Below, piece after piece: positions 35,975 through 39,782 of a stretch of 64,000 bases of DNA (the first letter of the stretch is position 1; each line of letters opens with the position of its first letter). A program made the position numbers and the translations under genes. This stretch comes from Burkholderia sp. WP9 (lineage in GTDB: Bacteria > Pseudomonadota > Gammaproteobacteria > Burkholderiales > Burkholderiaceae). The DNA lies in the NCBI RefSeq assembly GCF_900104795.1, contig NZ_FNTG01000001.1, positions 2,914,001 to 2,978,000 on the forward strand, read 5' to 3'. A model generated the notes under the pieces. The model did not search any database and was not told the DNA's origin. It was given only the letters and a program-made list of their open reading frames with translations.

Positions 35975-37441
35975 ATGAACATCATCGAACCCGGTATCCG
36001 TAATCTCGCCACCGCCAAGGACATTCTCCTGACGCCCTACGGTCTCGACGAAGCCCTGCTCACCCGCACGCTCGCCGAAATCTTCACGCACAAAATCGAC
36101 TACGCCGACCTGTATTTCCAGTACACGCGCAGCGAAGCGTGGAGTCTTGAAGAAGGCATCGTGAAGTCCGGCAGCTTCAGCATCGACCAGGGCGTCGGCG
36201 TGCGCGCCGTGTCGGGCGACCGCACGGCTTTCGCCTATTCGGACGACCTGTCGCCCGAAGCGATCCGCCAGGCGGCGCTCGCCACTCGCTCGATCGCCAA
36301 GGCAGGCGGCGGCAAGCAGAAGATCAAGGTGGCCTCGTCGCTGACCGGCATTGCCGGGCGCGATCTGTATCTGCCGGCCGATCCGCTGCATTCGCTCGAC
36401 GCCACCGCCAAGGTCAAGCTGCTCGAGCGCATCGAAAAGATGGCGCGCGGCCGGGATCCGCGCATCCAGCAGGTCATGGCCGGCCTCGCCGGTGAATACG
36501 ACGTGGTGCTGGTCGCACGCAGCGACGGCGGCTTCGCGGCCGACATCCGGCCGCTCGTGCGCGTGTCGGTCACGGTGATCGCCGAGCAGAACGGCCGCCG
36601 CGAAATCGGCAGCGGCGGCGGCGGCGGCCGCTTCGACTACGGCTATTTCACCGACGACGTGCTGTCGGGCTACGTCGACGACGCTGTGCATGCGGCGCTG
36701 GTCAACCTCGACGCGCGTCCGGCGCCGGCCGGCGCGATGACTGTCGTACTCGGACCGGGCTGGCCCGGCGTGCTGCTGCACGAAGCGATCGGCCACGGTC
36801 TCGAAGGCGACTTCAACCGCAAAGGTTCGTCGGCATTCGCGGGGCGCATCGGCGAGCAGGTCGCCGCCAAGGGCGTGACCGTGGTGGACGACGGCACGCT
36901 GCCGAACCGCCGCGGCTCGCTCAATATCGACGACGAAGGCAATCCGACCCAGTGCACCACGCTGATCGAAGACGGCATTCTGAAGGGCTATATCCAGGAC
37001 ACGCTGAACGCGCGTCTGATGAAAATGCCGGTTACGGGCAACGCGCGCCGTGAGTCGTACGCGGCGCTGCCCATGCCGCGCATGACCAACACGTACATGC
37101 TCAACGGCGACAAGGATCCGCAGGAAATCCTCGCTTCCGTGAAGAACGGGCTGTATGCGGTGAACTTCGGCGGCGGCCAGGTCGACATCACGAACGGCAA
37201 GTTCGTGTTCTCGGCGTCCGAGGCGTACATGATCGAAAACGGCAAGGTCACGTACCCGGTGAAGGGCGCGACGCTGATCGGCAGCGGCCCGGAATCGCTC
37301 AAATACGTGACCATGATCGGCAACGACATGAAGCTCGATTCGGGCGTCGGCGTGTGCGGCAAGGAAGGCCAAAGCGTTCCGGTGGGCGTCGGCCAGCCCA
37401 CGCTGCGCATCGAGAAGATGACGGTCGGCGGTACTGCCTGA
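35975..37441 (+). CDS. tldD: Metalloprotease TldD
   Basis: One subunit of the TldD/TldE (PmbA) zinc protease that trims peptides such as microcin B17 precursor and the CcdA antitoxin. The zinc motif [12 protein letters not shown] begins at about residue 269 (HExxxH). [14 protein letters not shown] and [20 protein letters not shown] precede and follow it. The C-terminal block [42 protein letters not shown] completes the family pattern. Length 488 residues. ATG 35975 is the usual N-terminus; the frame extends 18 codons upstream. No tldE is present in this window. Confidence 0.96.
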
Positions 37442-37454
37442 TTTCGCAGCAAAC

Positions 37455-37487
37455 GCATACTTCGTGCATACATTGCGCGAAGTATGC
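37455..37487 (+). other. Inverted repeat after tldD
   Basis: GCATACTTCG (37455-37464) and CGAAGTATGC (37478-37487) form a 10-bp stem with a 13-base loop, 13 bases past the tldD stop. No T-run follows, so termination is unproven. Confidence 0.4.
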
Positions 37488-37516
37488 GGATTTCCCGCAT
37501 TTTTACGCCTCGCGGC

Positions 37517-37545
37517 TTGCAAGCGCAGCCTGCCCGGGTTATAAA
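37517..37545 (+). promoter_or_regulatory. Sigma-70 promoter of the aroG leader
   Basis: TTGCAA at 37517-37522 and TATAAA at 37540-37545 are separated by exactly 17 bases. Transcription should start near 37552, about 30 bases before the leader ORF. Confidence 0.8.
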
Positions 37546-37581
37546 GTCACTCACCCTTTTTGACCTTTGACCTCATTCGTC

Positions 37582-37650
37582 ATGTCCGCCAAGTTTTATT
37601 TTTACTTTTTTTGGCATCTCAGACCGCTGGCGGATCGAGAGGGGTGTTAG
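37582..37650 (+). CDS. Aromatic-rich leader peptide of aroG (22 aa)
   Basis: Short ORF, ATG at 37582 and TAG at 37648-37650. Residues 5-11 are FYFYFFW: four Phe, two Tyr and one Trp in seven consecutive codons. All Phe codons are TTT, unusual in a genome this GC-rich. It lies between a strong promoter and an intrinsic terminator in front of the DAHP synthase gene, so it has the design of an attenuator leader peptide whose translation senses charged aromatic tRNAs. The Shine-Dalgarno site is weak. The peptide itself is not expected to have a function. Confidence 0.88.
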   Translation: MSAKFYFYFFWHLRPLADREGC

Positions 37651-37708
37651 TGCACGCAGAACACCGAGAATTCCCGAAAAACCGCCAGCCAGCCTGGCGG
37701 TTTTTTTT
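37585..37708 (+). promoter_or_regulatory. Ribosome-mediated transcription attenuator controlling aroG
   Basis: Four mutually exclusive pairing segments can be read. Segment 1 is TCCGCCA (37585-37591), segment 2 is GCTGGCGGA (37626-37634), segment 3 is ACCGCCAGC (37681-37689) and segment 4 is CTGGCGGT (37694-37701). 1 pairs with 2 over 7 bp, 2 with 3 over 8 bp as antiterminator, and 3 with 4 as terminator. Segment 1 lies immediately before the aromatic codons at 37594-37614, so a ribosome stalled there would cover it and free segment 2 to pair with 3. A ribosome reaching the stop at 37648 would mask segment 2 and allow termination. Confidence 0.88.
37677..37708 (+). terminator. Attenuator terminator upstream of aroG
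   Basis: ACCGCCAG / CTGGCGGT is an 8-bp stem with a 5-base loop, extended by A:U pairs and followed by eight T residues (37701-37708). It is a canonical Rho-independent terminator, 111 bases before the aroG ATG. Confidence 0.95.
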
Positions 37709-37819
37709 CGCCTCATGTCTTTAAAACTTTATTTTTGATGATTGTCCGCTCTGGCATCGCTGCTTCATCGCAATCCTGACTGCCCGCGCGAACACGCTAC
37801 GAACCGACTGGAGAACACC

Positions 37820-38893
37820 ATGCCCCCGCACAATACCGACGATGTCCGCATCCGCGAGTTGAAAGAACTCACGCCGCCCGCTCACCTGATCCGCGAATTC
37901 GCCTGCGACGAAACGGTGTCCGACGTGATCTACAACTCGCGCACCGCGATGCATCGCATTCTGCACGGCATGGAAGATCGCCTGATCGTCATCATCGGAC
38001 CGTGTTCGATTCACGATACGAAGGCCGCGATGGAGTACGCGGGGCGGCTGGTCGAGCAGCGCAAGCGCTTTGCCGGGGAACTTGAAATCGTGATGCGCGT
38101 GTACTTCGAGAAGCCGCGCACGACGGTGGGCTGGAAGGGTCTCATCAACGACCCGCACATGGACAACAGCTTCAAGATCAACGACGGCCTGCGCGCCGCG
38201 CGCGAGTTGCTGTTGCGCATCAACGAACTCGGCCTGCCGGCCGGCACCGAATACCTCGACATGATCAGTCCGCAGTACATCGCCGACCTGATCTCGTGGG
38301 GTGCGATCGGCGCGCGCACCACGGAATCGCAGGTGCACCGCGAACTGGCTTCGGGCCTGTCGTGCCCGGTCGGCTTCAAGAACGGCACGGACGGCAACGT
38401 CAAGATCGCCGTCGACGCGATCAAGGCCGCTTCGCAGCCGCACCATTTCCTGTCGGTCACCAAGGGCGGCCATTCGGCGATCGTTTCGACCGCGGGCAAT
38501 GAGGACTGCCACATCATCCTGCGTGGCGGCAAGACGCCGAACTACGACGCGGACAGCGTGAACGCCGCGTGCGCGGACATCGGCAAGGCGGGTCTCGCCG
38601 CGCGTCTGATGATCGACGCGAGCCACGCGAACAGCTCGAAGAAACACGAGAACCAGATTCCGGTGTGCGCGGATATCGGCCGCCAGATTGCTTCGGGTGA
38701 CGAACGGATTGTCGGCGTGATGGTGGAATCGCATCTGGTGGCGGGCCGCCAGGATCTGCAGGAAGGCTGCGCGCTGACGTACGGCCAGAGCATTACCGAC
38801 GCGTGCATCGGTTGGGACGAAAGCGTCGCCGTGCTGGAGGGCCTCGCCGACGCAGTGAAGCAACGTCGTGTGGCGCGTGGCAGCGGCAACTGA
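37820..38893 (+). CDS. aroG: 3-deoxy-7-phosphoheptulonate (DAHP) synthase, class I
   Basis: Condenses phosphoenolpyruvate and erythrose-4-phosphate, the first step of the shikimate pathway to Phe, Tyr, Trp and folate precursors. The type I-alpha sequence is unmistakable: RLIVIIGPCSIHDTKAAMEYA, MRVYFEKPRTTVGWKGLINDPH, GLPAGTEYLDMISPQYIADLISWGAIGARTTESQ, PVGFKNGTDGN, IILRGGKTPNYD and MIDASHANSSKKHENQ. Length 357 residues matches AroG/AroF/AroH. The ATG at 37820 follows GGAG by 7 bases. Which end product inhibits this isoform cannot be read safely. Transcription is controlled by the upstream attenuator and ends at the terminator 38925-38957. Confidence 0.97.
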   Translation: MPPHNTDDVRIRELKELTPPAHLIREFACDETVSDVIYNSRTAMHRILHGMEDRLIVIIGPCSIHDTKAAMEYAGRLVEQRKRFAGELEIVMRVYFEKPRTTVGWKGLINDPHMDNSFKINDGLRAARELLLRINELGLPAGTEYLDMISPQYIADLISWGAIGARTTESQVHRELASGLSCPVGFKNGTDGNVKIAVDAIKAASQPHHFLSVTKGGHSAIVSTAGNEDCHIILRGGKTPNYDADSVNAACADIGKAGLAARLMIDASHANSSKKHENQIPVCADIGRQIASGDERIVGVMVESHLVAGRQDLQEGCALTYGQSITDACIGWDESVAVLEGLADAVKQRRVARGSGN

Positions 38894-39081: not shown

Positions 39082-39432
39082 ATGGAGCAGGAAAAAGAAA
39101 TTCGCTGGCTAGGCTCCAGCTATAGCGATTTACTCGCTTTTCCCGAGGAAATGCGTCGTCGAGCGGGGTTTCAACTCGGCAAAATTCAGGCAGGCCTCGA
39201 CCCTGACGACTGGAAGCCGTTTGACTCGATCGGCCCCGGAACGCGCGAGATTCGTATCAGGGAGGCAGACGGCATTTATCGCGTCATGTACGTGACCAAG
39301 TTCGTGGAGGCACTGTACGTGCTGCATTGCTTCCAGAAGAAAAGTCAGAAGCTGGGTCCGCATGACAGGAAGATTGCCGAAACGCGGTATCGCGCAATCA
39401 GGTCACACCACCTCTGCTCACACCACCATTAA
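39082..39432 (+). CDS. higB: Type II toxin of the HigB/RelE (Gp49-like) family
   Basis: Putative mRNA interferase toxin of 116 residues. The fold markers are IRWLGSSYSDLLAFPEEMRRRAGFQLGKIQAG at the N-terminus, TREIRIREADGIYRVMYVTKFVEALYVLHCFQKKSQKLGPHD in the middle and the conserved basic KIAETRYRAI helix. This Phage_derived_Gp49 pattern is typical of HigB-like toxins encoded before their antitoxin. It is followed after 17 bases by an HTH antitoxin on the same strand. The C-terminus ends in an odd His-rich stretch (RSHHLCSHHH). No inactivating change is visible. Confidence 0.88.
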   Translation: MEQEKEIRWLGSSYSDLLAFPEEMRRRAGFQLGKIQAGLDPDDWKPFDSIGPGTREIRIREADGIYRVMYVTKFVEALYVLHCFQKKSQKLGPHDRKIAETRYRAIRSHHLCSHHH

Positions 39433-39449
39433 CGATAGGAAAACTAACA

Positions 39450-39782
39450 ATGACGATCGACACCAAAATTCGTCACGTAACCCGGCCCGGCGCCAATCTG
39501 TTCCTCGAGCTCGGCTTTTCCGCTGAAGAGGCGAAGCGGCTGCACGCGGCGTCGCAGAAACAGATCAACGACACGCGGCTGCTCAAGGAGCAACTCATGA
39601 CAGAACTGTCCACGTGGATCGAACAGCATCATCTGAAACAGGCCGAGGCGGCCGAGATCCTGATGGTGTCGCGCCCGCGCGTGTCCGACGTGGTCAACAA
39701 GAAGACCACCAAGTTCACTATCGATACGCTGGTGGAAATGATGAGCCGGATCGGCAAGCCGGTCACGCTGGCGGTCGGCTAA
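39450..39782 (+). CDS. higA: HTH (XRE) antitoxin of the HigA family
   Basis: DNA-binding antitoxin, 110 residues, expected to neutralise the upstream toxin and repress the pair. The helix-turn-helix is HHLKQAEAAEILMVSRPRVSDVVNKKTTKFTIDTLVEMMSRIG at about residues 60-102. The N-terminal 45 residues should bind the toxin. The start has only a modest AGGAAAACTAACA site 10 bases upstream, which may set a toxin:antitoxin ratio. The toxin-first order is the HigBA arrangement. Confidence 0.88.
   Translation: MTIDTKIRHVTRPGANLFLELGFSAEEAKRLHAASQKQINDTRLLKEQLMTELSTWIEQHHLKQAEAAEILMVSRPRVSDVVNKKTTKFTIDTLVEMMSRIGKPVTLAVG

Follow-up and report, generated by a model that had tools for sequence, protein, structure and literature searches.

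We report that the leader region of aroG, the gene for 3-deoxy-7-phosphoheptulonate (DAHP) synthase, in Burkholderia sp. WP9 is very probably a ribosome-mediated transcription attenuator, a reading to which we assign a probability of about 0.88. The window analyzed here is a stretch of 64,000 nucleotides (contig NZ_FNTG01000001.1, positions 2,914,001 to 2,978,000 of the forward strand, numbered below from its first base) from a 9.02 Mb genome in 7 contigs; its AroG has its nearest named relatives in Paraburkholderia and scores 594.9 bits (E 4e-179) against the NCBIfam AroG model NF006723, whose cut-off is 568. Ahead of aroG stand the promoter-like sequence TTGCAA-17-TATAAA, a 22-codon open reading frame (ORF) in which 7/22 codons are aromatic (FYFYFFW, codons 5-11) and an intrinsic terminator with a T8 tail, as the initial annotation had proposed and as we confirm base for base (Table 1). 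The anatomy of the locus, its recurrence, the co-variation in two of its helices and the geometry of codons and ribosome are established by computation; we infer the transcription start, termination itself and the response to aromatic starvation.

Recurrence of the aromatic leader upstream of aroG

We examined three samples of regions upstream of aroG: the best 80 of 587 named aroG loci, mostly from the window's family; 80 regions among the matches listed for 120 genomes across the order, some of which belong to second aroG copies; and 40 regions among the matches listed for 184 genomes of the class. A detector accepted a region when it held an ATG-initiated ORF of 15-60 codons with at least four aromatic residues in eight and a nearby stem with a T-run, so that a terminator is present in every accepted locus by requirement. 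It accepted 110 of 201 regions, 109 of which were kept (the window plus 79, 27 and 2). The comparison of orthologous upstream regions had been suggested with the initial annotation. Leader and terminator were recovered from 79 of the 80 nearest named loci, from 27 of the 80 order-wide regions, spread over 13 families, and from 2 of the 40 class-wide regions, both of family f60. The region set aside, from the reduced symbiont Candidatus Vallotia cooleyia (L068), had matched the detector through an unrelated ORF while its own leader is broken, and it is left out of all counts over 109 loci. In Candidatus Burkholderia humilis (L054), which was retained, the leader frame continues through the terminator. 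A 1.2 Mb relative (L260) retains the leader, unlike these two symbionts.

The leader also stands out within its own genome. Its 9.02 Mb contain two places with six Phe/Tyr codons in a row (TWY x6) and none with the reversed control pattern; no leader was seen by eye at the second place. A covariance model found one full-length match in the host genome (E 2e-27), the next best being partial at 0.04, with 150 of the 3111 first-look candidates scored. The second aroG copy of the host (57% identical, on C2; L162) has no aromatic leader by the detector.

These distributions bear on a much simpler explanation, in which a constitutive terminator, belonging to tldD or to a plain 5' untranslated region, happens to lie beside a chance ORF. 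Intrinsic terminators are indeed common between genes, and the leader is missing from most sampled aroG upstreams outside the window's family. We nevertheless consider this explanation highly improbable: a separate hairpin follows tldD 200 nt upstream, the aromatic leader is seen again in 13 families across the order at a similar spacing to a GGCGG motif, the top aromatic ORF is accompanied by a terminator in only the two accepted regions among the 40 class upstreams, and the ORF is broken in only one of the 80 nearest loci, that of the reduced symbiont L068. The hairpin behind tldD, which ends at 37441, is probably the tldD terminator (fold of 37455-37505, z -6.93) and is followed by GCGGATTTCCCGCATTTTT; the strength of this hairpin suggests that aroG probably has its own promoter. 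Of 80 loci in the window's family, 67 have a TTGN3-N16-18-TATAAW motif 5' of the leader. A generic scan called no promoter at this site of the window, because TATAAA breaks its rule of a T at position 6, and a generic terminator scan listed only a shorter alternative stem at the leader.

Competing helices and the position of the ribosome

Three alternative pairings between four RNA segments had been pointed out in the initial annotation, 1:2 (37585-37591 with 37628-37634), 2:3 (37626-37633 with 37682-37689) and 3:4 (37681-37688 with 37694-37701), and all are present as described, with segment 2 ending 14 nt before the leader stop. The antiterminator 2:3 and the terminator 3:4 are mutually exclusive, as both use segment 3, the 5' arm of the terminator. 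The terminator (CCGCCAG...CTGGCGG, then T8) folds on its own at -18.3 kcal/mol with z -4.99. The minimum free energy fold of 37553-37710 combines 1:2, a GGUGUU/AACACC hairpin and 3:4 (z -2.33, 4/200 shuffles as good), and 37612-37691 alone, with the part of the leader 5' of the Trp codon withheld, adopts 2:3 with a modest z of -1.36 (20/200 shuffles as good).

Across loci, the four-segment scheme was supported for 2:3 and 3:4, while support for 1:2 was confined to the window's family. We scored each helix against 100 dinucleotide shuffles, with a mark of at least 96 beaten. Helix 2:3 reaches this mark in 79 of the 80 family loci and in 19 of the 29 others (98/109 in total), helix 1:2 in 34 of 80 and 0 of 29. 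By this comparison segment 1 and the 1:2 helix are outside the conserved core and find support only in the window's family. In a 58-sequence alignment, 93.3% of cells are paired in 2:3, with 12 doubly changed as against 4.5 after shuffling (0/500 shuffles as good); in 3:4 the figures are 98.6% and 21 doubly changed in 3 pairs (shuffled 5.2 and 1.4), and in 1:2, 72.0% and 8 (shuffled 4.1). Compensatory changes, for which the initial annotation had proposed a test, are found in 2:3 and 3:4 in excess of shuffles, those of 2:3 falling in only two pairs.

Segment 3 was also exchanged between lineages. Among 33 hand-picked representatives (8 from the window's family and 25 others, with the near-duplicates L089, L090 and L130 left out), native 2:3 duplexes sum to -711.8 kcal/mol, compared with -634 (sd 15.9) after swaps, and none of 20000 permutations reaches that native value. 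Tested alone, the sequences flanking GGCGG likewise pair better with their native counterparts than with exchanged ones (47/20000 permutations as good), which suggests an extended antiterminator in which GGCGG is joined by a purine run on one strand and CCGCC by a pyrimidine run on the other; depending on the lineage, the pyrimidine run reads UUCCC, UCUC or UUUC. The base before GGCGG co-varies with the base after CCGCC (U-A in 15, C-G in 8 and U-G in 3 of the 33; 39/2000 permutations as good), as does the third base out from the core (9/2000). The near-invariance of the GGCGG core itself fits a sequence obliged to match more than one partner.

We masked the RNA with an assumed ribosome footprint extending 14 nt 5' and 16 nt 3' of the first base of the P-site codon, and computed the probability of 2:3, P(2:3), for a ribosome stalled at each codon. 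In the window it is 1.00 for stalls at codons 5-9, 0.65 at codon 10, 0.38 at codon 11 and 0 at codons 12-22. A drop somewhere after the aromatic run is seen in 109/109 loci, and the last aromatic codon lies 1.6 codons (sd 0.8) ahead of the first blocked one, in keeping with the ribosome-stalling geometry that the initial annotation had recognized. Over the 109 loci, 772 of 1284 codons before this border are aromatic, as against 35 of 1175 from the border on, and the aromatic leader lies 12.3 nt (sd 2.8; 33 representatives) from GGCGG. Under this footprint, the geometry of codons and ribosome is what an attenuator needs.

Which of the three amino acids counts most is a matter of inference. Among the 109 leaders, 104 combine Phe with Tyr, 82 contain Trp and 80 have all three residues, with means of 4.2 Phe, 2.1 Tyr and 0.8 Trp codons per leader, and third bases vary between T and C while the residues stay (68 loci selected for FYFYFF). 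Codon content thus points to sensing of the whole aromatic pool; by codon number Phe and Tyr would be read, and Trp only weakly in the window, whose single Trp codon (codon 11) is a place where a stall would already disturb segment 2. A serious alternative, if in our view the less probable one, is that the attenuator senses only or mainly Phe and that the Tyr and Trp codons are filler, as reported for the aroR leader of Corynebacterium glutamicum, a Phe-Tyr-Phe leader on which Tyr is without effect and which responds to Phe, according to the portions available from one source (PMC11802643). Phe is the commonest aromatic codon in our set, and the window's Trp codon sits at the edge of the permissive zone; yet the joint presence of Phe and Tyr in nearly every leader, and of all three residues in most, speaks against filler. 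So does the mask analysis of the 33 representatives, where P(2:3) is above 0.5 at 53 of the 69 Tyr codons and at 15 of the 24 codons for Trp. All four Phe codons of the window leader are TTT, compared with 6 TTT against 58 TTC in five neighboring genes (window G+C 64%), and 67 of the 68 FYFYFF loci have TTT as both the first and the third codon of the run. Use of this less common codon may delay the ribosome or help the region to stay single-stranded.

The codon pattern argues that the leader is translated, and the absence of a Shine-Dalgarno (SD) sequence argues against an ordinary start. Anti-SD pairing at the leader start has a median energy of 0.3 kcal/mol, the same as for shuffled sequence (0.4), whereas 78 of 79 aroG orthologs reach -4 kcal/mol or better. 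An SD role for GGAGAGGGG was dropped, as no start codon follows it at a steady distance by eye. At the other end of the leader, the PLADREG terminus is read in another frame at the same length in L013 and L014, with the aromatic run and RNA segments kept, and in another frame with a later stop in L034, again with the RNA kept. By this comparison the end is kept as RNA rather than as peptide, and on the strength of these three loci we rejected a function for the conserved C-terminal residues. The same loci stand against a further proposal, that a small trans-acting regulator is made here in addition to attenuation, in the form of either the terminated leader RNA or the peptide, since the peptide end shifts frame in all three while the RNA is kept. 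The surroundings of segment 2 (TCTC...GAGAGGG) are, by eye, more constant in the window's family than the named pairings require, as such a regulator might predict; even so, we regard it as unlikely.

Several observations weigh against the attenuator. Detector thresholds and cut-offs were fixed after a first look at the data, and the detector finds no leader in 53 of the 80 order-wide and 38 of the 40 class-wide regions. The 33 representatives are mutually non-independent, 8 coming from one family and several from others. Eleven of the 109 loci fall short of the shuffle mark for 2:3, the second base out from its core shows no co-variation (1143/2000 permutations as good), the confinement of its doubly changed cells to 2 pairs is what shuffling yields (1.9; reached by 402/500 shuffles), and RNAalifold, unaided, predicts 3:4 as the only helix. 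For a ribosome at the stop codon, P(2:3) equals or exceeds the mean at the aromatic codons in 38 of the 109 loci (the latter is higher in 71), the window having 0.46 at its stop. An SD sequence at -4 kcal/mol or better precedes the leader in only 2 of 109 loci. Finally, at ribosome-free equilibrium the window RNA forms 1:2 when it ends at 37660, yet 2:3 forms (1.00) and 1:2 loses when it ends at segment 3; the complete leader forms 1:2 and 3:4, with 1:2 reaching up to 0.89-0.91 only in a shorter transcript or after synthesis of segment 4. The outcome must therefore depend on how fast and in what order the helices fold.

Table 1. Features of the aroG leader locus, in window coordinates
Feature	Position	Strand	Basis
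Hairpin 3' of tldD, 14-bp stem	37455..37487	+	Fold; tldD end
Sigma-70-like promoter: TTGCAA 37517-37522, 17-nt spacer, TATAAA 37540-37545	37517..37545	+	Direct reading; family conservation
Leader ORF MSAKFYFYFFWHLRPLADREGC, 22 codons, ATG 37582, TAG 37648-37650, no SD sequence	37582..37650	+	Direct reading; comparison of loci
Segment 1 GUCCGCCA, partner of segment 2; support limited to the window's family	37584..37591	+	Folding; alignment; shuffles
Control codons Phe-Tyr-Phe-Tyr-Phe-Phe-Trp, codons 5-11	37594..37614	+	Direct reading
Segment 2 GCUGGCGGAU: antiterminator 5' strand (37626-37633) and partner of segment 1 (37628-37635)	37626..37635	+	Folding; shuffles; swaps
Purine flank of segment 2 GAGAGGGG, predicted to pair with the pyrimidine run 5' of segment 3	37637..37644	+	Swap test; flanks alone
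Small predicted hairpin GGUGUU/AACACC between leader and terminator, in both predicted states	37643..37665	+	Folding of the window
Pyrimidine run UUCCC, predicted to pair with the purine flank	37671..37675	+	Swap test
Intrinsic terminator: 13-bp stem, 5-nt loop, T8 37701-37708; core 3:4	37676..37708	+	Fold; alignment
Segment 3 CCGCCAGC: terminator 5' arm and antiterminator 3' strand	37682..37689	+	Compensatory changes
aroG SD sequence GGAGA	37810..37814	+	Direct reading
aroG, DAHP synthase, gene predicted to be controlled, ATG 37820	37820..38893	+	NCBIfam NF006723 equivalog

On the 3' side of aroG, a gene pair at 39082-39782 encodes a Gp49-like (PF05973) and a helix-turn-helix (PF13744) protein and looks like a HigB/HigA-type toxin-antitoxin module.

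Wider distribution and probable descent with aroG

The covariance model, built from aroG leaders only, extends the leader beyond the sampled loci. Among 300 genomes of the order, 144 match at E 0.01, many through bare terminators; 81, the host included, have a full-length match at E 1e-5, most of those beyond the 27 being known only as model matches, and terminator-only hits (model positions 95-130) are excluded from the leader counts. Among 249 genomes of the phylum, 35 match at E 1e-5, of which 15 lie outside the class in three families. All 12 inspected of these 15 carry an aromatic leader directly 5' of a DAHP synthase reading frame, and four scanned DAHP synthases from outside the class score 511-526 bits against the NCBIfam aroFGH model (cut-off 173).

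We also read by eye 20 weaker or odd hits of the order scan. Aromatic leaders precede aroG in L251 and L257-L260 (the gene is confirmed as AroG in L251, L257, L258 and L260), another is found in L256, and L245-L250, L252-L255 and L261 bear no resemblance to an aromatic leader by eye. In two genomes of family f27 (L242 and L243, counted among the 81), aromatic leaders such as MVTFSVVYNVYFYWYRSSGGAKGC with a GCCGCC/GGCGGC terminator lie 5' of another gene, whose product has no Pfam match (the L243 protein was scanned), and the detector finds no leader in three sampled f27 aroG upstreams (L119, L120 and L131). In family f200 (L267), the model recovers a pheL-like leader, MKLFPFFFAFFFTFP, 5' of a gene for a bifunctional chorismate mutase/prephenate dehydratase. 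In L244 (family f21), leuA is preceded by a Leu-rich leader, MELFIAALLSLLLLSRLKDR..., and a terminator.

The leader largely follows the aroG gene tree, as judged from 64 AroG proteins of our own choosing (38 with and 26 without a leader). The leader label requires 8 changes on this tree compared with 20.4 after shuffling (0/500 as low), a count that near-copies help to lower. Five proteins from outside the class group together (99/89) and join a leader-bearing f4 protein (88/86), while their link to the leader-bearing f60 is weak (57/80). This pattern fits a leader inherited with its gene, with transfer between classes and several losses; the direction of transfer and the root are not resolved by the tree.

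Proposed mechanism and relation to known systems

In the mechanism that we propose, RNA polymerase would start about 30 nt 5' of the leader AUG and a ribosome would follow, translating the leader. With an ample supply of charged aromatic tRNAs, this ribosome would pass the Phe, Tyr and Trp codons and move onto segment 2; with segment 2 covered, segment 3 would pair with segment 4 and transcription would end at 37708. When these tRNAs are short, the ribosome would halt within codons 5-11, where it covers segment 1 and stops shortly before segment 2, leaving segment 2 and its purine flank to pair with segment 3 and its pyrimidine flank; no terminator would then form and aroG would be transcribed. 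A ribosome-free leader in the window's family may have its segment 2 held by segment 1.

Classic four-segment attenuation is that of trpL-trpE, where segment 2 lies after the ORF; in the window leader it lies inside the ORF. The C. glutamicum aroR-aroF attenuator was reportedly the subject of Neshat et al. 2014, and the studies of proteobacterial attenuators by Panina (2001), Vitreschak (2004) and Merino and Yanofsky (2005) may contain a prediction of this kind. In C. glutamicum, a leader peptide with Phe and Tyr codons precedes the DAHP synthase gene and stalling of the ribosome raises transcription, as outlined in the available portions of PMC11802643 and PMC4046766. That system is actinobacterial and reads Phe-Tyr-Phe, whereas the window leader has seven aromatic codons including Trp and a GGCGG/CCGCC core, and we liken the two by description only. 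It is the one leader-peptide attenuator of a DAHP synthase that we found in the accessible portions of the open-licence PMC literature; the consulted part of a 2005 survey gives database-derived predicted attenuators 5' of Vibrio DAHP synthase-tyrA operons (PMC1173090). The terms aroG and phospho-2-dehydro are absent from the main text, so far as available, of four Burkholderia RNA papers (PMC5688073, PMC4603805, PMC10175445, PMC4035088), and aroG and aroF from the accessible portion of a genome-wide attenuator survey (PMC2965389); Table S3 of PMC5688073, which covers 82 short 5' UTRs of B. cenocepacia, may include aroG.

A riboswitch, in which an aromatic metabolite would bind the RNA itself, is barely credible here, though a second layer of control may exist. 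No Rfam family reaches its gathering score in the window, Phe_leader (RF01859) is among the weak hits on the window leader at 16.8 bits against a gathering score of 55, and conservation tracks codons and pairing. Trp_leader (RF00513) appears neither among gathering-score matches nor among weak hits in the window. The pheL-pheA system likewise has a Phe-rich leader and a terminator, but it controls the Phe branch, and Phe is the sole aromatic residue in the L267 leader.

The same enzymatic step is controlled differently in E. coli, where, in the passages available, DAHP synthase genes are repressed by aromatic amino acids through TyrR and TrpR (PMC5343134, PMC11802643). These are DNA-binding regulators, whereas the window system is an RNA leader and neither regulator model matches the host genome: Pfam Trp_repressor and NCBIfam HTH_TypR find nothing there at E 0.001 and both match in E. 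coli. According to the available part of one study, TyrR and TrpR are conserved among gammaproteobacteria, and other classes lack them (PMC5343134).

Taken together, our findings describe what is by its anatomy a real, widespread and apparently undescribed variant of classic attenuation, kin to pheL, trpL and C. glutamicum aroR, in which the lineage, the codon mix, the core sequence, the start without an SD sequence and the extended antiterminator are new. Whether it is also an ancient device that gauges the combined supply of Phe, Tyr and Trp where the shikimate pathway begins, stands in for TyrR and TrpR in bacteria without these repressors and has moved between proteobacterial classes with aroG, keeping its SD-less start and extended antiterminator, is a broader proposition on which we judge the balance to be even. 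The attenuator would give a direct and testable answer to how the first committed aromatic step is controlled in the window's relatives, which matters because TyrR and TrpR are reported absent outside gammaproteobacteria. It would add a widespread cis-regulatory RNA without a matching Rfam family, and the natural series of leaders with varied Phe, Tyr and Trp mixes would bear on how one leader weighs several amino acids and on translation without an SD sequence.

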